DNA of 64,000 nucleotides. Origin: Antricoccus suffuscus. Lineage in GTDB: Bacteria > Actinomycetota > Actinomycetes > Mycobacteriales > Antricoccaceae. The stretch is from contig NZ_PVUE01000002.1 in NCBI RefSeq assembly GCF_003003235.1, positions 248,001 through 312,000 of the forward strand, written 5' to 3'. Positions 16,216 through 53,651 of the stretch are shown piece after piece (position 1 is the first letter of the stretch; the number at the start of each line of letters is the position of its first letter). The notes beneath the pieces are model-generated. The model saw only the letters and a program-made list of their open reading frames with translations, did not search any database and was not told the DNA's origin. A program made the translations under genes and the position numbers.

Positions 16216-16770
16216 GTGCGATCAGACTCAAAGTCTCCCCAGGCTTCCTCCGGCCGCGACCGAGAGCAATTCGGCGCGATAGTCGGCCCCGTCGTGACCG
16301 GTTCGGGTTTCGACCTCGACGATCTGGCGGTGAGCCAGGCCGGTCGTCGTACGGTCGTCAAGGTCGTCGTCGACGGCGATAACGGTGTCTCACTCGACGA
16401 CATCGCCGCGATGAGCCGCGCGATCTCGGCGGCCCTCGACGATCGCGATGACGACATCGGCAGCGCGCCGTACACGCTCGAAGTGACATCGCCCGGCGTA
16501 GATCGTCCCCTGACGACGCCGCGACATTGGAAGCGCGCCACCGGTCGACTGGTCGCGTGTACGACGGAGGGCAATCCGATCCAAGGGCGAGTCATGTCTG
16601 TGCAGGACGAGCAGGTGACGCTGGATGTAGATGGCGCGCAGCGGTGCTATACGGTCGACGGTCTGTCACCAGGAAAAGTCCAGGTTGAGTTCGCAAAGGC
16701 ACCGAAGCAGCCCAAAGCACCTAAGATGCCCAAAGAGCCTAAGAAACAGAAGAAGCCGAAGGGTTCCTAA
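16216..16770 (+). CDS. rimP: Ribosome maturation factor RimP
   Basis: RimP assists 30S assembly. The 184-aa product (GTG start) has the DUF150 pattern: [33 protein letters not shown] and [16 protein letters not shown] lysine/proline-rich tail ([19 protein letters not shown]) extends beyond the family core and probably binds rRNA. It heads the rimP-nusA-ylxR-infB-rbfA group. Confidence 0.95.
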
Positions 16771-16781
16771 GGGGAAGTGCC

Positions 16782-17789
16782 ATGAACGTAGACATTTCGG
16801 CGTTACGCGCAATCGAGCGTGAGAAGGACATTTCCTTTGAGACGGTGCTGTCGGCAATTGAGACCGCGCTGCTATCGGCGTACCGGCATACCGACGGGGC
16901 ACAGGCTCGTGCCCGGATCGAGATCGACCGCAAAAGCGGCCTCGTCCAGGTGATGGTCCAGGAGACCGACGTAGAAGGCAACGTCACGCGCGAGTGGGAC
17001 GATACGCCCGACGACTTTGGCCGAATCGCTGCGATGACGGCAAAACAGGTTATCTTGCAGCGGCTGCGCGAGGCCGAACAAGAGCACACGTTCGGCGAGT
17101 TTTCCGGCCGTGAGGGTGACCTGGTCGGCGGCGTAGTCGAAGCGGACGCGATGCGCAATCAACGCGGCGTCGTCGCCGTACGACTGACCCCGAAGCTGGA
17201 GGCGGCGCTGCCGCAGTCCGAGCAGGTGCCCGGCGAGGACTACACGCACGGCACCCGGCTCAAGGTGCTCATGGTGTCGATCGTGCGCGGGATGCGCGGG
17301 CCTCAGGTGACCGTCAGCCGTAGCCATCCCAACCTGGTGCGCAAGTTATTCGCGCTAGAAGTACCGGAGATCGCCGACGGGACCGTCGAGATCATCTCCA
17401 TCGCCCGCGAAGCCGGTCACCGCACAAAGATCGCCGTGGTATCTCACTCGCCGGACGTCAGCGCTAAGGGCGCGTGTATCGGTGAGATGGGTGCGCGCGT
17501 TCGTCATGTGATGAGCGAACTGAACGGCGAGAAGATCGACATCGTCGACTACTCCGAGGACCCGGCCGAGTTCGTGGCCAGCGCGTTGTCGCCGTCGCAG
17601 GTCGTCGCCGTACACGTCACCGACCGGTTCGCGCGCGCGGCACGCGTGATCGTCCCGGACTTCCAGCTGTCCCTGGCGATCGGTCGCGAAGGCCAGAACG
17701 CGAGGCTCGCGGCGCGACTTACCGGCTGGCGGATCGACATCCGCAGCGACGCCGAGGTGGAGAGCGCCGTACCGGAGGAGCAGGCCTAG
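16782..17789 (+). CDS. nusA: Transcription termination/antitermination factor NusA
   Basis: The 335-aa protein has the N-terminal RNAP-binding domain, an S1 domain around residues 110-180 and two KH domains ([19 protein letters not shown] and [19 protein letters not shown]). The C-terminal acidic repeats of the Escherichia coli protein are absent, as is normal in Actinobacteria. It starts 11 nt after rimP. Confidence 0.97.
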
Positions 17790-28363: not shown

Positions 28364-28583
28364 GTCGTACCTCTCACTTGTGTCAGTGAGAAGCACCCAG
28401 GCGGTCGACGCTTCACGAAATTGCACTCCCCGGTAGTTCACCTACCCGCGCCAGTCGTGTCCGTAGATAGTACGTCGTCAATTGGTTCCGTCGACAGACT
28501 CGGGTGGGTAGCCGCCCGACCGGAAAGTTTGGTGCGCCAGCGTCCCGAAAGTTCCACTAAGTGGGGCCATTGGCCGGTGCTCG

Positions 28584-35823: not shown

Positions 35824-36069
35824 ACACGGAGGGCATCCGCCCACGTGACAATTGAATCCGCTCCCGCCAATCGGCGTTGGGGCACCACCTCGCGTGTACG
35901 ACGCAGATGACGTGATCGAGACGCACACTGGCCCTCGGTGGTGGCCAACGGAACGCACCGGACATCCGTCCAGACCGATCCGCTGGCTTCGATCGAAGAC
36001 CGGTTGTCGCACTCCACGATCCCTCGTCTGCGTTAGGCGTACACGCCTGCACCAGAATGAGGACAAATT

Positions 36070-43302: not shown

Positions 43303-44589
43303 ATGTCGACCGATCCGGCAACACTTGAGGCTCAGGTTGCGGCATCTGCCGATACATACACGCCCAAGCAACGCCGTCGAGTACTAGCCGCGGCGTCCCT
43401 CGGGTGGGGTCTTGAGTATTTCGACTTCATGTTGCCGACGCTGTTGTCGGTGGCGATCATGGCGCACTACAACGTCGACGCGGGCACCTTCAGCGCGGCC
43501 TTGATGGTGCAGTTGGTTGGCTCGGCCGTTGGAGGCCTGATCTTCGGCTGGCTCGGCGACAAGTTCGGTCGGCGTGCCACTCTCATCTGGTCAATTCTTA
43601 TCTACTCGGTAGCGACCGGCCTCATCGTCTTCACGCCGCCGTTTGCGGTCTTCGTCCTTCTTCGCTTCTTCGCGGGGTTGGGCACTGGGGGTGAGTGGGC
43701 AGTCGGGTTCGCCTGGATCAACGAGGTATGGAAGCCCAAGCGTCGAGGTTTCTCGGGGTCTTTGATCCAGGCGTCGCTGTGGCCTGCGTACGCCTTGGCG
43801 ATCTTGGTCTCGCAGGTCGTCGTCGAGTGGCAGTGGGCTTTCCTGATCGGACTCGCACCCGTGCTTGCGTGCGTGTGGATCCGACTTACCTGCCCCGAGT
43901 CCAAGCAGTGGGAAGAGCTGCAGCGGCTCAAGGCCGACGGAAAACTCTCCGATGAGATTCAGGCCAAAGCTCGCCGCTCGGCGTGGGTCCAGATCTTCAT
44001 GAAGGAGAACCGGAAGACACTCCTGCTCGGAGTCCTTGTCGCGTTCGGTGCCCAATGGGTCCCGTACACGGCTACCACTTGGATGCCGACACTCCTCCGA
44101 GAAGATCTGGGCATGACCAAGGGCGAATCAAGCAACGTGCTTTACATCGCGGCGGCCATCTCGTTCGTCAGCTTTATTGCCGCGGGCTGGCTGTCGGATC
44201 GATATGGTCGACGCAGAGTCTGCGTGTGGTTTGCTGGGTTACAGGCACTGACGTTTGGCGTGATGTTTGTGATCGCGGCTCTCGGGGCGTCGCTTCAGCC
44301 TTACGTCATTCTGTATTGGCTCGCGTCGGTCTTCTTGGGCTATTTTGGAATCTTCGGCGCATGGTTCGGCGAGCTATTTCCCACTCGGATCAGGGCGCTG
44401 GGCTCGGCGGCCGCCTACAACGTCGGCCGGGGCCTGTCGAGTCTTGGCACCATCATCGGCGGCGCGATCGCGGTGAGCCAGGGATACTCATACGCCGTCA
44501 GCATGGCCGTCGTGGGCTGTCTGGTCGTGGCCCTGGTCGGATCGTTGTTAGGTGACCGCACCGGTCGAGAAATTCACGCGGAGGAATAG
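43303..44589 (+). CDS. MFS transporter, organic-acid:H+ symporter type
   Basis: The 428-aa protein has 12 predicted membrane helices and the MFS loop motif GWLGDKFGRRATL between helices 2 and 3, repeated as GWLSDRYGRRRVC between helices 8 and 9. GLGTGGEWAVGFAWINEVWKPKRRG is typical of the metabolite/aromatic-acid:H+ symporter groups, which import rather than export. It is the first gene of the cassette, with a clean GGAGG ribosome-binding site, and 14 nt separate it from the first selenoprotein gene. It probably brings in the substrate of the pathway; the substrate is unknown. Confidence 0.85.
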   Translation: MSTDPATLEAQVAASADTYTPKQRRRVLAAASLGWGLEYFDFMLPTLLSVAIMAHYNVDAGTFSAALMVQLVGSAVGGLIFGWLGDKFGRRATLIWSILIYSVATGLIVFTPPFAVFVLLRFFAGLGTGGEWAVGFAWINEVWKPKRRGFSGSLIQASLWPAYALAILVSQVVVEWQWAFLIGLAPVLACVWIRLTCPESKQWEELQRLKADGKLSDEIQAKARRSAWVQIFMKENRKTLLLGVLVAFGAQWVPYTATTWMPTLLREDLGMTKGESSNVLYIAAAISFVSFIAAGWLSDRYGRRRVCVWFAGLQALTFGVMFVIAALGASLQPYVILYWLASVFLGYFGIFGAWFGELFPTRIRALGSAAAYNVGRGLSSLGTIIGGAIAVSQGYSYAVSMAVVGCLVVALVGSLLGDRTGREIHAEE

Positions 44590-44603: not shown

Positions 44604-46349
44604 ATGGCTGATTCATACGACGTTGTCTGGCCGCTCGGTCGCCGAGGTATCGAAAATGTAGAAGCGCATGATCGACCCAACAGCCTTGACGGGAAAACAG
44701 TCGCGTTTCTTTGGGACTACCTGTTCAGGGGGCCCGAGATGTTCGATGCTATCGAGGCAGAAATTACGTCCCGATACTCGGATGTCACGTTCGTATCGCA
44801 TGAGGAGTTTGGCAACTTCCACGCGTCCATGGCCGCGGAGAAACGGATTCTCGAGCAACTTCCCGAGATGCTGCATACGCGCAAGGTGGACCTTGTGATT
44901 GCCGCGGTAGGCGCTTGAGGTAGCTGTATGCCTGCCGTGATGCGGGCCTGCGCAACGGTCGAACGAGCCGGAATATCAGCCCTGGCAATTGGCGGGGCTG
45001 GATTCGAAGGGATGGGCCGCGCCATCGGGCGTTCCATGGGCATCTCGCACGTGCCGATCGTCTCCTATCCAGGCGTCATTCTCACTGACGACACCGAGGT
45101 CTTCCTCCGCAAGATGTCCGAAACTGTCGCACCTCAAGTGGTTGACGGACTGCTCAAGAGCACTGCGACCATAAGCGACGACGTGCCAGATGACGACGCC
45201 GAGCCCACGGACCGTGAGGTGGTGTTCTCTGGTTCGCTCGCTGAAGTCCAAGAGTTCTTCCACGAGAAGAGCTGGACTGATGGGCTCCCGATCATTCCGC
45301 CAACGATTGAGGCCGCCAACGAATTTCTCCGCCACACGGATCGGCCGCCGGATGAAGTCATGGGCCATCTGCTGCCGGACCTTCGCGAGGCGACGATATG
45401 GAATGTCGCAGTCAACGGGGTCATGGCAGGCTGCCGGCCCGAGTACATGCCAGTGCTCGTCGGAATTGTTGAATGTCTCCTTGACCCGGTGTTTCGGATC
45501 CAGGATGCCGGCTCGACTCCCGGGTGGGAGCCGCTGGTGATTCTGTCCGGTCCGGTCGTCAATGCACTCGGGTTCAACTCAGGAACCGGTGTGATGCGCA
45601 TCGGGCGACAAGCGAACTCCAGTGTCGGGAGGTTCGTTCGCCTGTATATGCGCAATGTGCCTGGTCTGCGGATCGCGCCGGACCACACGGATCAGGGAGC
45701 GATTGCGACGTCGTTCAACGCAGTGCTCGCCGAGAACGATCGTGCCGTTGAAGATCTCGGCTGGTCGTCGTTTCGAGCAGACAAGGGTTTTGACCGTGCC
45801 GAGAGTGTCGTGTCAGTGCGAAGCTGCGTCACGATCAGTGCACCGATCTACACCGGCGGCGACACGGCCGAAGACCACCTGAGGACGCTAGCGCTCATCT
45901 TCGGCAACGCCATGGGGCCCTGGTCCTACACCGGGTTCGAGTTCGGTGAATGGCATCCGGTGCTCGTACTCGGCCCGAGCATCGCGCGCGCACTTGAGGA
46001 GCACGGGGTCGGAAAAGACGACCTGCGCCGTTACCTCGCCCAGAACATGACCATCTCGGTCGATGACTTGAACCGCTACGCGTGGCAGGTTGGCTCGACC
46101 AGTTTCTCCGTGGACAAGATGGTCGAAAGCGGCGAGCTAGCGGCCAGCTATGGGCCGGTCGGTGATGCCAGTCGACACGTTCCGATGTGCCCGACTCCCG
46201 ACTGTATCGACATCGTTGTGGCCGGCAACGAAAGTAGAAACCAATCCAGGGGCTACGTACAGAACCATGTCCAGGGCGTGCCAGTGTCTAGGTCAATAGC
46301 GTTTCGTGGCACCGCGAGTGAGAATCAGCCGCATCGGCGAACGGAGTGA
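44604..46349 (+). CDS. UGSC-family selenoprotein fused to a DGLPxxPPT domain (contains in-frame TGA as Sec)
   Basis: Read with TGA 44916-44918 as selenocysteine the gene encodes 581 aa. Residues 1-190 are an alpha/beta domain: KTVAFLWDY strand, VDLVIAAVGA strand, then U105-G106-S107-C108 at the head of a helix, then ISALAIGGAGFEGMG and VPIVSYPG. From about residue 195 a second domain carries DGLPIIPPT (226-234) and VMAGCRPEYMPV. If the TGA were a stop, a 104-aa piece and a 473-aa piece lacking a good ribosome-binding site would remain, yet both match the second selenoprotein and its partner. A hairpin suitable as SECIS follows (44929-44954). UGSC is a named (seleno)protein family; its reaction is not established to my knowledge. 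A Sec next to a resolving Cys two residues on suggests redox or nucleophilic attack. Confidence 0.92.
44929..44954 (+). promoter_or_regulatory. bSECIS-like hairpin of the first selenoprotein gene
   Basis: CCG (44935-44937) pairs with CGG (44943-44945) closing the loop UGAUG (44938-44942). Below it G34-C47, U33-G50 and the outer TGC/GCA (44929-44931 with 44952-44954) extend the stem with bulges. The loop begins 20 nt after the UGA and has G in its second position, within the usual limits for bacterial SECIS elements read by SelB (loop 16-37 nt from UGA, G among its first two bases). Confidence 0.65.
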
Positions 46350-46353
46350 GTGA

Positions 46354-46893
46354 ATGAAGATCTACAACCCGACGTACGGGGTTCGGGACGCTACCGGGCA
46401 TCTTGCCGTGCATGCGAGTTCGGCGCTCACCGACACCATCTGCCTCTACTCAAACTCCAAACCCAACGCGTCCAACTTGCTCAACGGAATCGCCGCCGGG
46501 GCCGTTGCGGCCCTCGGTGTGCCCGAAGTCGGCTTCGTATCAAAACCCAACGCAGCGGTGGCTGGTGAAACCGAGACTTACGACTGGCTTGCCGAGCGCT
46601 ATCGGTTCGCCTTACTCGCCTCGGGTGATTGAGGCTCTTGCTCATCGTGGAGTTTCCACGATTCAGTCGAGCTCGAGAACCGAGGCGTGACGGCATTTGT
46701 GGTAGTCACCAAGCCATTCCTGCCGCTTGTGAAGGCACAGGCCAAGAGCCGAGGCGTTGAGCCAAAACTCATCGTCGTCGGGCATCCAATTGGCGGACTA
46801 AATGAGACAGAGCTTCAAGAGCGGATCACGGAGGGTATCGAAGGATTCCTAAGTGAGTTCGCAAGAGTACGAGAGGAGGGAAATCGTGGCTGA
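46354..46893 (+). CDS. UGSC-family selenoprotein, single domain (contains in-frame TGA as Sec)
   Basis: Read with TGA 46630-46632 as selenocysteine, the gene encodes 179 aa with U93-G94-S95-C96. The fold pattern repeats that of the first selenoprotein: a strand (YRFALLASGD) ending in UGSC, a helix, then GVTAFVVVTKPF and PKLIVVGHPIGG. GGAG lies 7 nt before the ATG, and the gene follows the first selenoprotein by 4 nt. A perfect 8-bp hairpin follows the UGA. It ends in TGA inside the ribosome-binding region/start of the next gene (overlap with GTG 46886). Standard translation would give a 92-aa fragment and an orphan 68-aa frame. It is probably the catalytic partner of the stand-alone DGLP protein encoded next. 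Confidence 0.92.
46644..46662 (+). promoter_or_regulatory. bSECIS-like hairpin of the second selenoprotein gene
   Basis: ATCGTGGA (46644-46651) pairs perfectly with TCCACGAT (46655-46662) around the loop GTT. The loop starts 20 nt after the UGA, the same distance as in the first selenoprotein gene, and its first base is G. The stem is entirely inside the coding frame. Confidence 0.8.
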
Positions 46894-47914
46894 TCAGCAA
46901 TTGCTGGACGTGCCCGAGATGGACGGTGCGGACTGGTTTGAGTACGCGCTAGGCGAAGGATGGAGCGACGGCCTCCCTGTCGTACCGCCGACCGTCGAAC
47001 TGGTGGATCGGATGATCGAGGCGACCTCCAACTACGGTGCTCTTCCCGAACTACCGCCTAGCCGGCTAACCGGGTCGATCGAATCGTTCGCCGCAAACGC
47101 GGTTATGGCCGGTTGCCGCCCGGTTGACTTTCCGGTTGTCTTGGCGGGACTGCGGGCCGTCGCGTCGGAGGCGTACAACTTGCACGGCACGCTCGCGACA
47201 ACACATCCCTGCGCGCAATTCATGATGGTCAATGGCCCTGTCCGCGACGCGGTTGAGCTGAACTGCGGGACTAACTGCCTCGGCCAGGGCACTCGAGCCA
47301 ATGCGGTAATTGGCCGTGCACTGCAACTCATTCTGCGCAATGTCGGTGGCGCGATTCCCGGAGTCATGGACCGATCGACTCAGGGATCGCCCGCGAAATA
47401 CGCCTACTGCTTCGGGGAGAATGAAGAAGACTCGCCGTGGCAGCCGTATCACGTGCGTGCCGGCTATGCGTCCGGCGACAGCACCGTGACAGCCATGGCC
47501 GCGGAGGGCCCGCACAACATCAACGATCATGGCAGCAATACAGGTATCGGGATCTTGCAGACCGTGGCAGGGGTCATGGGGCAGCCCGGCTCGAACCAGT
47601 CGTACGTACGAGGCCCGCACTTTGTGCTGTTCGGCATCGAGCACGCTGCGACGTTAGCCCGGGATCACTGGAATCCGGACACGATTCGTGAGTGGCTATT
47701 TGACAATGCCCGCATCCCAGCGGAGCGGATTTCGGAGGAAAACAAGCAACAGTTTGCAGACCATGGCATAGAAACGGTGGCAGGCGAATACACCGTGAGT
47801 ACCGGTCCGGACATGATCAATGTCGCGGTTGCCGGCGGATTTGGAAAACATTCAGCGTGGGTGCCGTCCTTCGGCGGTACCGCGGTGATCACCGAGAAGA
47901 TAATTAGCGACTGA
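46886..47914 (+). CDS. DGLPxxPPT-domain protein, stand-alone (partner of UGSC selenoprotein)
   Basis: The 342-aa protein is homologous to the C-terminal domain of the first selenoprotein: DGLPVVPPT at 28-36, NAVMAGCRPVDFPVV, LNCGTNCLGQGTRANAVIGRALQLILRNVGGAIPG, and GPDMINVAVAGGFG close to the end. It carries conserved cysteines in MAGCRP and LNCGTNC. The GTG at 46886 was chosen because GAGGAGGG lies 5 nt upstream; the GTG at 46853 would sit inside the previous gene without such a site. The start overlaps the end of the single-domain selenoprotein, so the two are made together. Reaction unknown; the fused arrangement at 44604 argues for a complex. Confidence 0.85.
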   Translation: MADQQLLDVPEMDGADWFEYALGEGWSDGLPVVPPTVELVDRMIEATSNYGALPELPPSRLTGSIESFAANAVMAGCRPVDFPVVLAGLRAVASEAYNLHGTLATTHPCAQFMMVNGPVRDAVELNCGTNCLGQGTRANAVIGRALQLILRNVGGAIPGVMDRSTQGSPAKYAYCFGENEEDSPWQPYHVRAGYASGDSTVTAMAAEGPHNINDHGSNTGIGILQTVAGVMGQPGSNQSYVRGPHFVLFGIEHAATLARDHWNPDTIREWLFDNARIPAERISEENKQQFADHGIETVAGEYTVSTGPDMINVAVAGGFGKHSAWVPSFGGTAVITEKIISD

Positions 47915-47969: not shown

Positions 47970-48869
47970 ATGAACGACGCCCATTGGGACGTAATAGTTG
48001 TAGGTGCAGGGATCGCGGGGATGAGCGCCGCGCAGGTAGTTGCCGAGGCGGGCTTGTCGTGCATCGCTTTCGACAAGCTATTTCCCGGAGGCCAAATCGT
48101 AAACCTGCCTCATATCGCAAATCTGCCTGGCATACCAAAAGAGACGAGCGGTGCGGAGGTGTCCGGCGTTCTCCTCGAGTCGATCATGGATCTCGGCGTC
48201 GAAATCGCGTACGGAGAAGTCGAGGCGATTGAACCGGGTAAACCGCAATTAGTGCGGACCGCTGGACGCGAGTTGACCGCCGACGCCGTGATCATCGCTA
48301 CCGGCAAATCGGCCGGCAAACTTGATTTCGACGAGGCCAGCGAGTTCCTCGGGCGCGGGCTGTCGGAATGCGCAAGTTGCGACGGCCCTATGTACTCGGG
48401 CAAGCGCGCGGTCGTCGTGGGTTCGGACGAGTGGGCAGCGCAAGAGACGATCGAACTGGCCCAGTTCGCGGACGTGGTCACCTTGATTTCACCGGCAACG
48501 CCGCGGTGGTCGACGTTCCGAGCCAAGCAACTGTCCGACGCGTCAGGCATTGAAGTCCGCGAAGGGGTGTCTGTGGTGGCTCTGCGTGGTGATTCGGTGC
48601 TTGAGAGGCTCGAGTTGAGTGATGGGTCGGTCATTGACGCCGCCGGGGTGTTTCCGTATGTGGGCAAGTCACCGAACTCTGGGGTGCTCCCGCGGGTCGC
48701 TACCGATGAGGGGGTGATCGGCGTCGACTCCTCAATGGCGACGACATCGCCAGGCGTGTTTGCCGCGGGAGACGTCCGCGAGGGAGCGGCCGAGTACGTT
48801 GCAGCGGCGATTGGTGACGGACTGACGGCGGGCCGGCGAGCGGCGGAATTCCTGCGGTCCTCGCAATGA
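47970..48869 (+). CDS. Thioredoxin-reductase-like FAD/NAD(P)H oxidoreductase
   Basis: The 299-aa protein has the FAD loop VIVVGAGIAGMSAA at the N-terminus, FPGGQIVNLPHIANLPG (the TrxR flavin segment), the dithiol C124-A-S-C127-D-G of low-molecular-weight thioredoxin reductases, an NAD(P)H loop VVVGSDEWAAQETI that is degenerate (glycines lost), and the final GVFAAGDVREGAAEYVAAAIGDG. GAGGAG precedes the ATG. The CASC dithiol could hand electrons to the Sec/Cys pair of the UGSC proteins. The altered NAD(P)H loop suggests another donor or cofactor preference. Its stop overlaps the next gene (ATGA at 48866). Confidence 0.85.
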   Translation: MNDAHWDVIVVGAGIAGMSAAQVVAEAGLSCIAFDKLFPGGQIVNLPHIANLPGIPKETSGAEVSGVLLESIMDLGVEIAYGEVEAIEPGKPQLVRTAGRELTADAVIIATGKSAGKLDFDEASEFLGRGLSECASCDGPMYSGKRAVVVGSDEWAAQETIELAQFADVVTLISPATPRWSTFRAKQLSDASGIEVREGVSVVALRGDSVLERLELSDGSVIDAAGVFPYVGKSPNSGVLPRVATDEGVIGVDSSMATTSPGVFAAGDVREGAAEYVAAAIGDGLTAGRRAAEFLRSSQ

Positions 48870-49891
48870 GCTCGTCGGGTGTTCTTCGAGTCTTCACCGA
48901 TGACATCGACGCCGAACGGGTATTCCACGAGCTCACCGCCGAGGGCATAGGGGACGGACTGCCCGTCATTCCGCCGACCCAACGGCGAATCGATGCGATG
49001 CTCGAAACTGTTGATCAGCCGGAGTCGAATCTCGGGCTGGTCCCACCGCTATATGCGGAGTTGACCGCGTGGAAAACGGCGTACTTCTCAGTGATGTCTG
49101 GAATTTCGCCCGCGGAGTTTCCGATCGTGCTGACCGCGGTGCACGCCTGTCTCGAAGAGCAGCTCAATCTTCTCGGCGTACAGACGACCACCGGCACAGC
49201 GGCCGTCGGGGTGGCAGTTCACGGGCCGGTCTGCCGGCAGCTTGGACTGAATAGTGGCAGCGGTTGTATGGACGGTACTGCCCATCCCAATGTGCGGATC
49301 GGTCGTGCAGTCTCGTTGGTGCTGAGGGGGGTTGGCGGCGCTACGCCGGGGGAGCTAGATATGGCCACTATGGGCCAACCCGGCAAGGTCGGCATGTGCT
49401 TTGCCCATGAGGTGACGTCCGCGCTCAGCTCGTTTCACGGATCCGAGAGCGCGGTTACGGTATTCGCGTTCAGCGGCACCGCTGAAGTCTTGCCGCTTGG
49501 CGACTGCAACGTTGCCGAGGACATTCTCAGACCGTTGGCCGAGAGTGTTGTCGCCGCCCGCCTAGCGATGGGAGCCCCGCTCAAAAGGCTTCCTAATGAC
49601 GAGATACTTGTCGTTCCTCCGGAAATTGTTGCGCTGCTCGAGAAGTGGGGGGTGAACCTGAATCAGATTTACGAGAGGCTCAGGAGCCTGACCTCAGAGC
49701 TCCTAGAACGGCGATCGAGGGAGCTCGGATTGGAGGTCAACGGAACGGTGGACATGCTTACTAAAGCAAGCGACCTACGCGTCCTCGTGGCCGGCGGTAC
49801 GGGTATCAAGATGACGTACTTGCCGACTTGGAAAGGTGGCAGTAGGTCGGTAACCAGACCTCTGACCGCCACCGGGGTAGGTGCGTTGTGA
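48866..49891 (+). CDS. DGLPxxPPT-domain protein, divergent third copy
   Basis: The 341-aa protein is a paralogue of the partner domain: DGLPVIPPT at 30-38, VMSGISPAEFPIVLTAVHACLE, LNSGSGCMDGTAHPNVRIGRAVSLVLRGVGGATPG. The cysteine of VMAGCRP is replaced (VMSGISP), and the C-terminus differs, so it may have a separate role from the copy at 46886. It overlaps the flavoprotein gene at its start (ATGA) and the permease gene at its end (GTGA), giving strict translational coupling on both sides. Confidence 0.82.
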   Translation: MSSSGVLRVFTDDIDAERVFHELTAEGIGDGLPVIPPTQRRIDAMLETVDQPESNLGLVPPLYAELTAWKTAYFSVMSGISPAEFPIVLTAVHACLEEQLNLLGVQTTTGTAAVGVAVHGPVCRQLGLNSGSGCMDGTAHPNVRIGRAVSLVLRGVGGATPGELDMATMGQPGKVGMCFAHEVTSALSSFHGSESAVTVFAFSGTAEVLPLGDCNVAEDILRPLAESVVAARLAMGAPLKRLPNDEILVVPPEIVALLEKWGVNLNQIYERLRSLTSELLERRSRELGLEVNGTVDMLTKASDLRVLVAGGTGIKMTYLPTWKGGSRSVTRPLTATGVGAL

Positions 49892-50955
49892 CGGCGGCTG
49901 TACAGGTCGTGCCGCGTCGGCGCTGGATCCAGGGCGCGCTGATCACCGCGACAATCGCGGTCGCAGGTTTGGCCTGGGCGAAATGGGTTCCGTATTGGGG
50001 CAAGGCGACTGGTGCGGCCGGTTCTCATGCATGGGCCGGGACCAATATCCTCAACGCTGGCGGCGTCGAGTCCGGAGACGCCCCGTCGTGGGCAGCCGGT
50101 TGGTCGTTCACGACGGCGTACGCCGAGTCAATCTGGAAGGCGCTGCTGGTCGCGTTGCTCTTGGGCTGCGCCATCCAGGTGTTGGTGAAGCCGAGCTTCT
50201 TCGTATCGTTGCTGTCTCGCCAGCGGACTCTCTCCAGCGCAGTCGCAGGTGCGGTCTCAGCGATGCCGAGCATGATGTGCACGTGTTGCACGGCTCCGGT
50301 TGTCAGGTCGTTGCGTAAGAGTGGAGCGAGTCTTGCGGGCGCGGTTTCCTACTGGCTGGGCAACCCGGTGCTCAACCCTGCGGTGTTGGTATTTCTCGCC
50401 GTTGTCGCGCCGTGGCAGTGGGTTGCCACCAGAGCGGTCGTGGGCGTGGTGCTGGTCGTGGGTGCAGGGGCCGTTGTCGGTCGGCTGTTTCGCGGCACGG
50501 ACACCATGCGCGCGGTGGACGTGGATGCGGTCACCGAGAGCGAGGCAGGCCCGTCCGTACGGCGGTTTGTGATGACCTTCGCCAAGATGGTCGCCATCCT
50601 GATCCCGGAGTACTTCATCGTGGTGTTCTTACTGGGCGCCGTGCGTGGCTGGATCCCTGAACCTACGGCGATCGCGTCGAGTACGAGTGGTTTTCTCCCT
50701 GTGGTGCTGGCCGCGGTACTCGGCACGCTGCTGGTGCTTCCGACAGCCGGCGAGCTACCGATTCTCATCGCGTTGGCATTGGCCGGGGTCAGTCCAGCAG
50801 TGATCGGCGCCTTGCTGATCACGCTGCCTGCGGTGAGTCTGCCAGGATCGGTGATGACGTGGCGATCGTTCGGGTCGCGAGCGAGCCTGTCGATCATGGC
50901 GTGCAGCGTGTGCGCCGGGCTATTGGGCGCCGGCGCGCTGGCAGTGATGACGTGA
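49888..50955 (+). CDS. ArsP/DUF318-like permease with CTCC motif
   Basis: The 355-aa protein has about eight to ten membrane helices. After the third one it carries MPSMMCTCC with C131, C133 and C134, followed by TAPVVRSLRKSGASLAGAVSYWLGNPVLNPAVLVFL, the repeat pattern of the DUF318/ArsP permease group, and a second repeat VLGTLLVLPTAGELPILIALALAGVSPAVIGALLITLPAVSLPG. Known relatives export methylated or aromatic trivalent arsenicals or metals, using cysteines for metal contact. Here export of a product of the selenoenzymes is the simplest reading, but direction and substrate are inference. Coupled to selB by GTGA. Confidence 0.8.
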   Translation: MTAAVQVVPRRRWIQGALITATIAVAGLAWAKWVPYWGKATGAAGSHAWAGTNILNAGGVESGDAPSWAAGWSFTTAYAESIWKALLVALLLGCAIQVLVKPSFFVSLLSRQRTLSSAVAGAVSAMPSMMCTCCTAPVVRSLRKSGASLAGAVSYWLGNPVLNPAVLVFLAVVAPWQWVATRAVVGVVLVVGAGAVVGRLFRGTDTMRAVDVDAVTESEAGPSVRRFVMTFAKMVAILIPEYFIVVFLLGAVRGWIPEPTAIASSTSGFLPVVLAAVLGTLLVLPTAGELPILIALALAGVSPAVIGALLITLPAVSLPGSVMTWRSFGSRASLSIMACSVCAGLLGAGALAVMT

Positions 50956-52775
50956 CGGGCCCGGCCAAGAGCTTCGTGTTCGCGACCGCCGGTCACGTCG
51001 ATCACGGGAAGTCCGCACTCATTCGGTCGCTGACCGGTATCGAGCCGGACAGGTGGGATGAAGAGCAGCGCCGCGGAATGACTCTCGACCTCGGGTTTGC
51101 ATGGAGCGTCTTATCGAACGACGTACAGGTTGCGTTCGTCGACGTACCGGGACACGAACGGTTCGTGTCGACGATGCTCGCAGGTGCGGGGAGCGTGCCG
51201 GCTGTGTTGTTCGTGGTATCCGCCGACGAGGGCTGGTCTGCGCAGTCGAGTGAGCACCTGCAGGGGCTCGATGCCCTCGGCGTACGTGATGGGATCCTCG
51301 TCATCACGAAATCGGATTTGATGGATCCAGAACTCGCGGAGGCAGAGGCACGGGAACACCTCGGCGAGTCCGGTCTAGCGGATATCCCATCAGTCGCGGT
51401 GAGCGCGGCCACCGGCGCCGGCCTTGATGACCTTCGGACCGGGCTCGCTCGTCTGGTTGAACGGCTACGACCGCCAGACTCGAACGGCGACGTGCGGATG
51501 TGGCTTGATCGCGCGTTTACGATCCGCGGCGCGGGCACCGTGGTCACCGGGACGCTGACCGACGGAACCTTACGCACCGGGCAAGACCTCGAGCTCTACG
51601 ACGTACACGATGCCTCCACAACACGCGTCCGCATTCGCGCGCTGGAATCGGCTGGCAGTAGGGAAGAATCGTACGTCGGGATACGCCGAGTGGCCGTGAA
51701 TCTGCGCAATGTGCCTGCGACACAAGCGAAACGCGGTTCCCTGCTTCTGACTCCTGATCGCTTCGACTGCTCGAACGTCGTCGATGCCCGACTGCACGTG
51801 AGCGACTTGTCGGCGGGTCTGTCTGTTCCGCAGGAATGCACCGCGCATATTGGCACGGCCGCAGTTCACTGTCGCGTGCGTCGCCTCGACGCGGAATTCG
51901 TGCGGGTAACTCTCGACACGGCACTTCCGCTGCGGATCGGCGATCGGCTCGTGCTGCGTGACCCGGGACGGCGAGTGATCTTCGGTTCGGCGACAGTGCT
52001 TGACACCGCTGTGCCACGGTTCACCCGTCGCGGCGCCGCGACCGCGCGTGCCGCGGCACTGATCGACTACGGCGCGGTAGCAGACGCACGGGTACTTGTT
52101 CGCGATCGCGGGATCGTGCGCGCCGATGAGCTGTCCCGCATGGGATGCGCCGACTTGCCAAAAGCGACGCGGGGTTGGTGCATCGACCCCAACTATCTCC
52201 AGCAGCGCGTAGAACAGATTGTCGCGCTGATCGACGACGACCTACGGCGTAACCCCGATTCTCGCGGGTTGTCGATCGAGACGGCGCGGCAGCAGCTCGA
52301 CCTACCGCATCTTGATGTGCTGCATGCGGTATTGGCGAAGGTTCCGGGCGCGCAGGTGATCGACGGCTTCGTCGTCGACGAACGCCACACCTCGATGACC
52401 CCGACGCTGCAAGAAGGGCTGCGCAAATTCATGACGACCATCGCGGACAACCCGTTTCATGCGCCCGACGCGGAAGCGCTACGAGAGTTGGGGCTGAGTT
52501 CGCGAGAGCTGTCTGCCCTGTGCCGTCACGGGGAGCTCGTCTCATTGGCGTCAGGGATCTATCTGACGCCCGAGACGATTGACCGGTCAGTTTCGCGGTT
52601 CGCCGAGTTCGAGGCGCCATTCACCTTGGGCGAGGCTCGGGAGGCACTGGGCACGACGCGTCGGGTCGCGGTCCCGCTGATGGAATACCTTGCGCGCGTC
52701 GGTAGGACCAAGCGGGTTGCCGACGGGCGTCATGTCGTTGTCGCCCCGATTAAGACCGCGCATGATGCTGACTGA
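50952..52775 (+). CDS. selB: Selenocysteine-specific elongation factor SelB
   Basis: SelB delivers Sec-tRNA to UGA codons that carry a SECIS hairpin. The 607-aa protein has GTPase motifs G14-HVDHGKS-21, RRGMTLDLGF (switch I), DVPGHE at 64-69 and TKSD at 119-122, then EF-Tu-like domains II and III, and a C-terminal series of winged-helix domains (residues about 375-607) that bind the SECIS loop. The GTG at 50952 overlaps the permease stop; the open frame upstream lies inside the permease. Its location in this run ties Sec decoding to expression of the UGSC genes. Confidence 0.96.
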   Translation: MTGPAKSFVFATAGHVDHGKSALIRSLTGIEPDRWDEEQRRGMTLDLGFAWSVLSNDVQVAFVDVPGHERFVSTMLAGAGSVPAVLFVVSADEGWSAQSSEHLQGLDALGVRDGILVITKSDLMDPELAEAEAREHLGESGLADIPSVAVSAATGAGLDDLRTGLARLVERLRPPDSNGDVRMWLDRAFTIRGAGTVVTGTLTDGTLRTGQDLELYDVHDASTTRVRIRALESAGSREESYVGIRRVAVNLRNVPATQAKRGSLLLTPDRFDCSNVVDARLHVSDLSAGLSVPQECTAHIGTAAVHCRVRRLDAEFVRVTLDTALPLRIGDRLVLRDPGRRVIFGSATVLDTAVPRFTRRGAATARAAALIDYGAVADARVLVRDRGIVRADELSRMGCADLPKATRGWCIDPNYLQQRVEQIVALIDDDLRRNPDSRGLSIETARQQLDLPHLDVLHAVLAKVPGAQVIDGFVVDERHTSMTPTLQEGLRKFMTTIADNPFHAPDAEALRELGLSSRELSALCRHGELVSLASGIYLTPETIDRSVSRFAEFEAPFTLGEAREALGTTRRVAVPLMEYLARVGRTKRVADGRHVVVAPIKTAHDAD

Positions 52776-52863: not shown

Positions 52864-53526
52864 GTGTCGAAGTACGAGACGGTCCCCGCGAATGCTTCGG
52901 CCCACGTCGCCACGCAGGTCCACGCGATGATCACGCGCGGCGAGTTTCTACCGGGTCAGCAGATCCGCCAGGAGAACCTTGCAACCAGGCTGGGCGTAAG
53001 CCGGGTCCCCGTGCGCGAAGCGCTCAAAGTGCTAGAAAACGAGGGAATCGTCACGCACGAGCCGTACGTGGGATACACCGTGACCAAGCTGAAGTTGAGT
53101 TATCTGCGCGAGGCTTACTACATGCGAGAAGCCGTCGAGAACTCCCTACTTCGTAAGTCTCCTCGCCCGAGCGCAGATGTGATTCGGGAACTCAATGAAA
53201 TCAACGATCGCGTGGCCAACGGATTTGAGTCCGGTGGTGTGGCCGCAGTGATAGAAGCCAATCACGATTTCCATTTCGCGATGTTTCGCGCCTCCGGCCT
53301 GGACTTCATGGTTCGCGAGCTGGAGCGGCTGTGGCGCCTCACATCGGCGTATCGCTTCGTGCATCGCTACGACGCGCAGTTTCGAGAAAGGATGGTGGCA
53401 GACCACCATGAACAGATTGACGCGTTCGAGAACGGCGACGTCGAGCATCTGATTGAGTTGCTCGTCGGACACCGCAACCTGACCCTGGAACAAACCGAGC
53501 TTGGGCTCGCGCCGATGATGCAGTGA
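52864..53526 (+). CDS. GntR-family (FadR/FCD) transcription regulator
   Basis: The 220-aa protein has an N-terminal GntR winged helix (QVHAMITRGEFLPGQQIRQENLATRLGVSRVPVREALKVLENEGIV) and an all-helical FCD effector domain, with the metal/ligand histidines suggested by NHDFHFAMFRAS, ADHHEQIDAF and VGHRNL. FCD regulators usually sense small organic acids. It follows selB by 88 nt and precedes tRNA-Sec by 29 nt, so it is the likely switch of the cassette; a candidate site lies at 43241-43254. Confidence 0.88.
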   Translation: MSKYETVPANASAHVATQVHAMITRGEFLPGQQIRQENLATRLGVSRVPVREALKVLENEGIVTHEPYVGYTVTKLKLSYLREAYYMREAVENSLLRKSPRPSADVIRELNEINDRVANGFESGGVAAVIEANHDFHFAMFRASGLDFMVRELERLWRLTSAYRFVHRYDAQFRERMVADHHEQIDAFENGDVEHLIELLVGHRNLTLEQTELGLAPMMQ

Positions 53527-53555: not shown

Positions 53556-53651
53556 GGAGGTGTACAGGTGCCTGGTGGCCCTCTCGGTCTTCAAAACCGA
53601 AGTAGCCGAGTATCTCGGCTAGGCGGGTTCGATTCCCGTCCACCTCCGCCA
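53556..53651 (+). tRNA. selC: tRNA-Sec (anticodon UCA)
   Basis: The 96-nt gene folds as tRNA-Sec. Acceptor GGAGGTG (53556-53562) pairs with CACCTCC (53641-53647), then discriminator G and encoded CCA. The D stem is about 6 bp with a 4-nt loop. The anticodon stem TCGGT/ACCGA holds CTTCAAA with UCA at 53591-53593. The variable arm is 8 perfect pairs, TAGCCGAG with CTCGGCTA (53603-53621), loop TAT. The T stem is GCGGG/CCCGT with loop TTCGATT. Position 8 (U53563) faces C53640, so the eighth acceptor pair typical of bacteria is not canonical; G53622-C53640 may instead extend the T stem. A TAGGGT box at 53540 could be its -10. Confidence 0.95.

Follow-up and report, generated by a model that had tools for sequence, protein, structure and literature searches.

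A UGSC-DGLP fusion selenoprotein in an operon of Antricoccus suffuscus, with a predicted remote kinship to PrdB and GrdB

The locus considered here raises a two-part question: is an in-frame TGA in a gene of the actinobacterium Antricoccus suffuscus a stop or a selenocysteine (Sec) codon and, if the latter, what might the encoded selenoprotein do? The gene lies on the plus strand of the window that we analyzed, a stretch of 64,000 nucleotides from contig NZ_PVUE01000002.1. Its frame starts with the ATG at 44604, meets a TGA at codon 105 (44916-44918) and is then open to the TGA stop at 46347-46349. Re-reading the sequence, we found the first TGA and the in-frame GGT AGC TGT that follows it precisely where the initial annotation had placed them; that annotation was also right that the frame stays open beyond this point, but the open part measures 476 codons rather than the proposed 473, a figure that stems from the mechanical ORF beginning at an ATG three codons later. 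With the TGA read as Sec105, the gene (44604..46349) codes for a fusion of 581 residues, which joins a UGSC domain to a DGLPIIPPT (hereinafter DGLP) domain, as had been claimed, and is delineated by the frame together with Pfam, homologue and model evidence. As TGA would be both codon 105 and the stop at 46347-46349, it would therefore carry two meanings within one gene. Over the two strands of 64 kb, chance alone predicts 0.06 occurrences of TGA+GGN+AGY+TGY and 0.27 of TGA+GGN+TCN+TGY; each is observed once (combined expectation ~0.3), and the two occurrences are the same site in two tandem UGSC genes.

Automatic annotation would treat the TGA as a true stop, implying a pseudogene, a sequencing error or two genes of 104 aa and 473 aa. 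Such a call was indeed made for a relative in Acidovorax sp. T1: of the UGSC-DGLP gene on its plasmid p2-T1 (L145, NZ_CP021650.1), only a 97-residue stub up to the TGA is annotated. The features of the protein argue against this: the Pfam UGSC domain (PF24696) runs across the TGA as a single domain from residue 6 to 183 (81 bits against a cut-off of 25; model positions 1-170 of 172), protein conservation and codon-position bias are similar on both sides of it, and the Actinomycetospora protein shares 57% identity with the part preceding the TGA and 68% and 62% with the two segments beyond it. AlphaFold2 likewise predicts a single confident fold for the whole fusion (pLDDT 93, pTM 0.93), with the UGSC motif lying at the end of a beta-strand as had been surmised from the sequence (predicted strand 97-103, Sec at 105, helix 108-121). 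Further, each piece has counterparts within the same run, again in line with the earlier claim, namely a UGSC gene at 46354-46893 and DGLP genes at 46853-47914 and 48866-49891.

The homologues speak to the same point. Our set comprised the relatives of the fusion alignment at 80 loci, mostly full-length fusions, of which the closest is from Actinomycetospora straminea (60% identity), followed by representatives from Chloroflexota, Pseudomonadota, Acidobacteriota, Bacteroidota and others. None of those examined ends at the TGA, and the codons aligned to it are TGA in 88 cases, TGC in 7, TGT in 1 and another sense codon in 2 (paralogues), with no instance of TAA or TAG; so many TGA codons at one site across distant phyla leave the true-stop reading a negligible probability. 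The replacement of Sec by Cys, which the initial annotation had suggested looking for, is seen in full-length fusions of Nocardioides (CGSC) and Curtobacterium (CGTC), in Bacteroidota with CGIC or CGLC (~409 query residues matched), and in stand-alone UGSC proteins with CGSC from haloarchaea and from actinobacterial genomes lacking SelB. In a tree of 57 fusions, Cys must have been gained or lost at least three separate times along branches with support, and the window protein is grouped with that of Actinomycetospora at 100/100 support. Some fusions depart from the motif. Two from one genome (L043 and L044, genome G186) have UDGC and UPGC in place of UGSC, with a DGLP domain devoid of its otherwise conserved Cys. 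Three others (L047:7390-9108; L067:6248-7390 and 16348-17472) lack both the Sec and the second Cys (GDMGTS, TGTSS, SGGS), which suggests that they are non-redox relatives.

The genome encodes the full machinery for Sec incorporation. SelB, the Sec-specific elongation factor (50949..52775 from its likely start, with the ORF open from 50859; TIGR00475, 302.7 bits, cut-off 242), and a tRNA-Sec with a UCA anticodon (53556..53651; ARAGORN, and Rfam RF01852 with 79 bits) belong to the same plus-strand run as the fusion, and selA and selD occur on another contig, together with a formate dehydrogenase-like gene that has its own in-frame TGA (C6:150022-157497). As a cross-check, we surveyed 296 genomes of the phylum for SelB. 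Besides the window's own genome, 17 have a TGA-form UGSC, and for 16 of them the SelB match has an E-value of 6.5e-74 or lower, well past the level reached by EF-Tu; the single one lacking such a match (G036) is 94% complete and in 130 pieces. Nothing better than EF-Tu-level matches (E 4e-60 or worse) was obtained for the three genomes whose UGSC forms are all CGSC (G150, G294, G102) or for the one whose fusion has neither Sec nor Cys (G136), and a genome with both TGA and CGSC forms (G284) has SelB. Matches to PF24696 in two further genomes (G271, G196) fell under the cut-off and were left out. These results bear on the idea that an ordinary amino acid is inserted at the UGA, by read-through or through reassignment of the codon, with no role for selenium. 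An open frame by itself cannot separate Sec from read-through, but TGA is the normal stop of this very gene (46347-46349), Cys is the only frequent substitute, the TGA forms track SelB, and tRNA-Sec and SelB are encoded in the run; we regard this idea as very improbable.

Additional evidence comes from the RNA downstream of the TGA. Minimum-free-energy folding predicts a SECIS-like hairpin with a 6-bp stem and a 6-nt loop (GCCUGC-CGUGAU-GCGGGC; 44930..44947, plus strand), the loop of which begins 17 nt past the TGA, and another hairpin follows the TGA of the second UGSC gene (46644..46662, plus strand; z -1.93). The fold energy of the former is not unusual (z -0.14), the whole segment being no more stable than its shuffles, RNAalifold yields only a 3-bp consensus over 72 homologues, and the TGA regions gave no hit in Rfam. 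Codon choice is a more sensitive test of the hairpin than fold energy or RNAalifold: the peptide PAVxRA is shared by 57 homologues, all of which encode Pro110 by CCC or CCT, where the codon usage of the individual genes predicts 21.6, and 55 of which have CGG for Arg114, where it predicts 12.2. Across all conserved columns of the respective residue, the codon bias of Pro110 (z 11.0, the second-highest Pro column reaching 3.1) and Arg114 (z 15.1, the second-highest Arg column reaching 5.8) stands apart; the sequences being related, these z values are not probabilities and it is the contrast between columns that counts. All six stem pairs are kept in 57 of the 67 homologues with Pro/Arg codons, and the Nocardioides Cys gene has CGC at the Arg114 position. 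By this measure, the synonymous sites five and nine codons past the TGA are uniquely constrained in a manner that would keep a SECIS-like hairpin. The predicted element corresponds to what is sought in a bacterial SECIS, i.e., a hairpin soon after the UGA that appears to be kept by selection.

The codon tally, the Cys forms, the co-occurrence with SelB and the synonymous constraint together led us to reject a true stop, a pseudogene or read-through. Given the interchange of TGA and Cys, the SelB co-occurrence, the complete Sec machinery and the SECIS-like constraint, we consider it computationally near certain that the gene specifies one 581-residue selenoprotein, in which the machinery of the organism itself (SelA, SelB, SelD and tRNA-Sec) would insert Sec at UGA105, aided by the downstream hairpin.

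This selenoprotein belongs to a known family. The UGSC motif, the Sec/Cys exchange and the whole domain are shared with the UGSC family (PF24696; NCBIfam NF041046), which corresponds to the 'UGSC-containing protein' in the survey of Zhang and Gladyshev 2008 (PMC2398784). There it figures among the most abundant selenoproteins of the GOS ocean survey (255 sequences), and its Fig. S1A depicts a UGSC/'Unknown_1' fusion of a UGSC selenoprotein with a conserved domain bearing a conserved Cys (PMC2398784), probably the same architecture as UGSC-DGLP. Since that work had already reported the family, and probably also the fusion, the gene is not a new category; the passages of the survey considered here offer no evidence on an operon, partner or fold of UGSC/Unknown_1 (PMC2398784). 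The window fusion differs from the family in being divergent (42.2 bits against the NF041046 cut-off of 125) and in its extra C-terminal DGLP domain; the second UGSC protein of the run likewise falls below that cut-off (102.5 bits). What appears new, and open to testing, is that UGSC and DGLP form a fixed pair, that they are set in an operon and that UGSC can be linked to the selenoprotein-B superfamily.

The model of the UGSC domain displays a Rossmann-like repeating beta/alpha order, in which strand 97-103 precedes Sec105 and helix 108-121 follows it. The structural matches of the domain (Z ~10, up to 10.7) include many dehydrogenases and B12/GTPase domains, pointing to a common fold and not to a function. 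The thioredoxin fold suggested for UGSC in 2008, characterized by a beta-alpha-beta-alpha-beta-beta-alpha order with CxxC or UxxC, is not supported by the model, as its order and its matches are of the Rossmann type; the absence of thioredoxins from the match list is not in itself proof. Sequence searches with the alignments A2, A3 and GrdB recovered no solved relative. The only other superfamily repeatedly matched in sequence by UGSC proteins is that of PrdB/GrdB: PrdB is matched by 38 of the 57 fusions (best 1.7e-4) and GrdB/GrdF/GrdH by 14-18 of them, the GrdB model matches 8 of 20 mixed UGSC domains (best 1.2e-6), and hhalign aligns UGSC with the GrdB profile at 1.3e-4 with U on U. The similarity spans ~45-80 residues around the Sec, beyond which both have a helix and an ER.GIP-like segment; the window gene alone attains E 0.04-0.16. 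Clostridium sticklandii PrdB has its Sec at residue 152 of 242 (PMC3091704), in agreement with its position in the UGSC alignment. Sequence comparison and modeling indicate that UGSC, for which a Rossmann-like fold is predicted, is distantly related to PrdB/GrdB as a branch of the selenoprotein-B superfamily. It is, however, far below the family cut-offs of that superfamily (the window protein scores 11.4-13.5 bits against PrdB, cut-off 300, not reaching the family score), is partnered with DGLP in place of the pyruvoyl proprotein PrdA/GrdE, and occurs in bacteria of soil, water and groundwater, with Cys forms in haloarchaea. The window's own genome has no match to GRDB.

The DGLP domain occupies residues 205-570 of the fusion (45216..46313), as defined by sequence comparison and a confident model (pLDDT 94), and has neither a Pfam family nor a convincing solved structural relative. 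Candidate relationships to class I fumarases or cyclic-amide hydrolases emerged from Foldseek with E 2e-4 to 0.05, but at TM 0.15-0.28 and rmsd 11-18 A we rejected them; nor do we trust the structural relatives obtained by VIA (best Z 6.2, mostly for the C-terminal part). Homology to GrdE/PrdA was also rejected (hhalign against the GrdE profile, E 0.47 over 15 columns). The association of DGLP with UGSC is pervasive. Among the 296 genomes, UGSC is above cut-off in 22 and DGLP in 23, with 22 in common (hypergeometric 2.5e-32, uncorrected for kinship); the one genome with DGLP domains, several of them, and no UGSC match is G183 (contig C272). A DGLP gene lies within 600 bp on the same strand for 33 of the 36 UGSC matches in these genomes, usually as a separate gene upstream of UGSC, whereas in the fusion, which is present in several phyla, the order is reversed with UGSC first. 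Because DGLP is found in all 22 UGSC genomes and within 600 bp of 33 of the 36 UGSC matches, UGSC and DGLP appear to constitute one system, with DGLP as the obligate partner that is covalently joined in the fusion. In four loci a thioredoxin-like CxTC domain, with weak Pfam support, is fused to the N-terminus of DGLP. One of these (L041:7709-9689, contig C9) belongs to the window's genome, where a third UGSC selenoprotein lies beside such a DGLP protein with a CATC motif.

In the window, the fusion is part of a plus-strand run of genes with overlaps or short gaps. It opens with an MFS transporter of the metabolite or organic-acid:H+ symporter group (43303..44589; NCBIfam 2A0112/2A0106/2A0115, Pfam MFS_1), and the fusion is followed by the stand-alone UGSC selenoprotein of 179 aa with Sec93 (46354..46893, TGA 46630-46632; Pfam UGSC, 109.6 bits), a stand-alone DGLP protein of 353 aa (46853..47914; ORF and homology), a thioredoxin-reductase (TrxR)-like FAD protein with a CASC motif (47970..48869, ORF open from 47919; TIGR01292, 204.7 bits, below the cut-off of 343), a third DGLP protein of 341 aa (48866..49891; ORF and homology), an ArsP/SaoE-like permease (49888..50955; PF03773, 89 bits; SaoE below cut-off), SelB, a GntR/FCD-type regulator (52864..53526; PF00392, PF07729) and tRNA-Sec. 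Elsewhere in the window, we noticed an Actino-pnp cis-regulatory RNA ahead of the polynucleotide phosphorylase gene (35927-36004, plus strand) and a ZMP/ZTP riboswitch barely above the Rfam gathering score (28388-28468, minus strand).

The permease, which overlaps both its operon neighbors and was not seen beside fusions elsewhere, raises the possibility of organometal(loid) or organoselenium handling. Haft and Gwadz are said to have described SAO, i.e., selenocysteine-assisted organometal operons, with which the run shares the combination of a Sec operon and a nearby SaoE-like permease. By analogy with the proposal for those operons, the permease would export metal(loid) species and the Sec would break a carbon-metal bond. 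However, the SaoE match has just 46 bits against a cut-off of 325, neither MerB nor any other Sao component was seen in the run, and no ArsP-like family recurs around the fusions at other loci, Actinomycetospora included; hence, we deem this role quite improbable.

Actinomycetospora (L063) keeps together GntR, MFS, the fusion, the TrxR-like protein, UGSC and DGLP, with the MFS gene directly before the fusion, and several Pseudomonadota keep fusion-DGLP-TrxR, in one case followed by SelA-SelB. Among 81 loci, the recurrent neighbors are Bug/TctC binding proteins (32 loci) and the TrxR-like protein (19 loci, being missing from most flanks examined), along with CoA-transferases, peptide/Ni-type ABC binding proteins and MmgE/PrpD; these family names rest on sequence recognition, with profile scans for part of them. 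The Acidovorax plasmid p2-T1 is a conjugative IncP plasmid with IS1071 nearby, and the literature on Acidovorax sp. T1 gave no useful lead on a substrate. On two haloarchaeal plasmids (L143, L144), an unannotated gene, apparently for DGLP, lies on either side of a Cys-type UGSC gene, and CoA-transferase genes as well as TRAP-transporter genes are close by. The transporters, CoA-transferases and MmgE/PrpD, as well as the IS1071-bearing conjugative plasmid, look like a catabolic setting for the system.

Taken together, the parts fit the plan of the D-proline and glycine reductases: the Sec is followed three residues later by a Cys, the run encodes a TrxR-like flavoprotein and an importer, and some DGLP proteins carry thioredoxin-like domains. 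In the mechanism proposed for D-proline reductase, the Sec attacks the substrate to form a selenoether, a Cys of PrdB then gives a selenide-sulfide, and a reductase regenerates the enzyme; in glycine reductase the electrons flow from NADPH via thioredoxin reductase and thioredoxin (PMC3091704), to which the TrxR-like protein of the window operon offers a parallel. By analogy, the MFS symporter would import an organic, probably acidic, substrate, and DGLP might bind it beside the Sec, which is a guess as DGLP shows neither PrdA/GrdE homology nor a trusted structural match. The selenolate would then attack or reduce the substrate, possibly with reductive bond cleavage as in those enzymes, and Cys108 would resolve the intermediate to an Se-S bond. 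Given the TrxR-like gene in 19 of the 81 loci and the CxTC domains on DGLP in four, we infer that the flavoprotein may re-reduce this bond with NAD(P)H, directly or via a thioredoxin-like protein or domain. As DGLP is no detectable PrdA/GrdE homologue, the system is neither a proline nor a glycine reductase, though its mode of action may resemble theirs. Alternatively, with Sec being real, this could be a general thiol-redox or peroxide-reducing protein akin to thioredoxins or peroxiredoxins rather than a substrate-specific reductase, as its UxxC motif, its TrxR-like neighbor and the 'likely Trx-like' fold given in the 2008 survey (PMC2398784) might suggest; a reference title in PMC3091704 even associates peroxidase activity with GrdB itself. 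Yet the predicted fold is Rossmann-like, UGSC is tightly paired with a second conserved domain, and the neighbors are genes for transport, acyl-CoA/carboxylate metabolism and regulation, not stress genes, making a general redox role unlikely. A Sec105 selenoprotein of the PrdB/GrdB branch that acts with its DGLP partner in substrate reduction using electrons from the flavoprotein is the explanation that we favor for the whole, with some reserve.

Finally, the tie to PrdB/GrdB, the fixed partner domain, the flavoprotein and the operon's own regulator turn an 'unknown selenoprotein' into a testable enzyme hypothesis, and suggest that selenium-dependent catabolism extends beyond the strict anaerobes. 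It also emerges that gene calling hides such proteins, as in the stub on the Acidovorax plasmid. More tentatively, and with somewhat less conviction than for the explanation of this locus, we propose that UGSC-DGLP may be an unrecognized, widespread Sec-dependent reductase: a branch of the PrdB/GrdB superfamily in free-living, often aerobic bacteria, which would act with a new kind of partner domain, draw its electrons from a TrxR-like flavoprotein and, within catabolic operons, cleave imported organic acids reductively.
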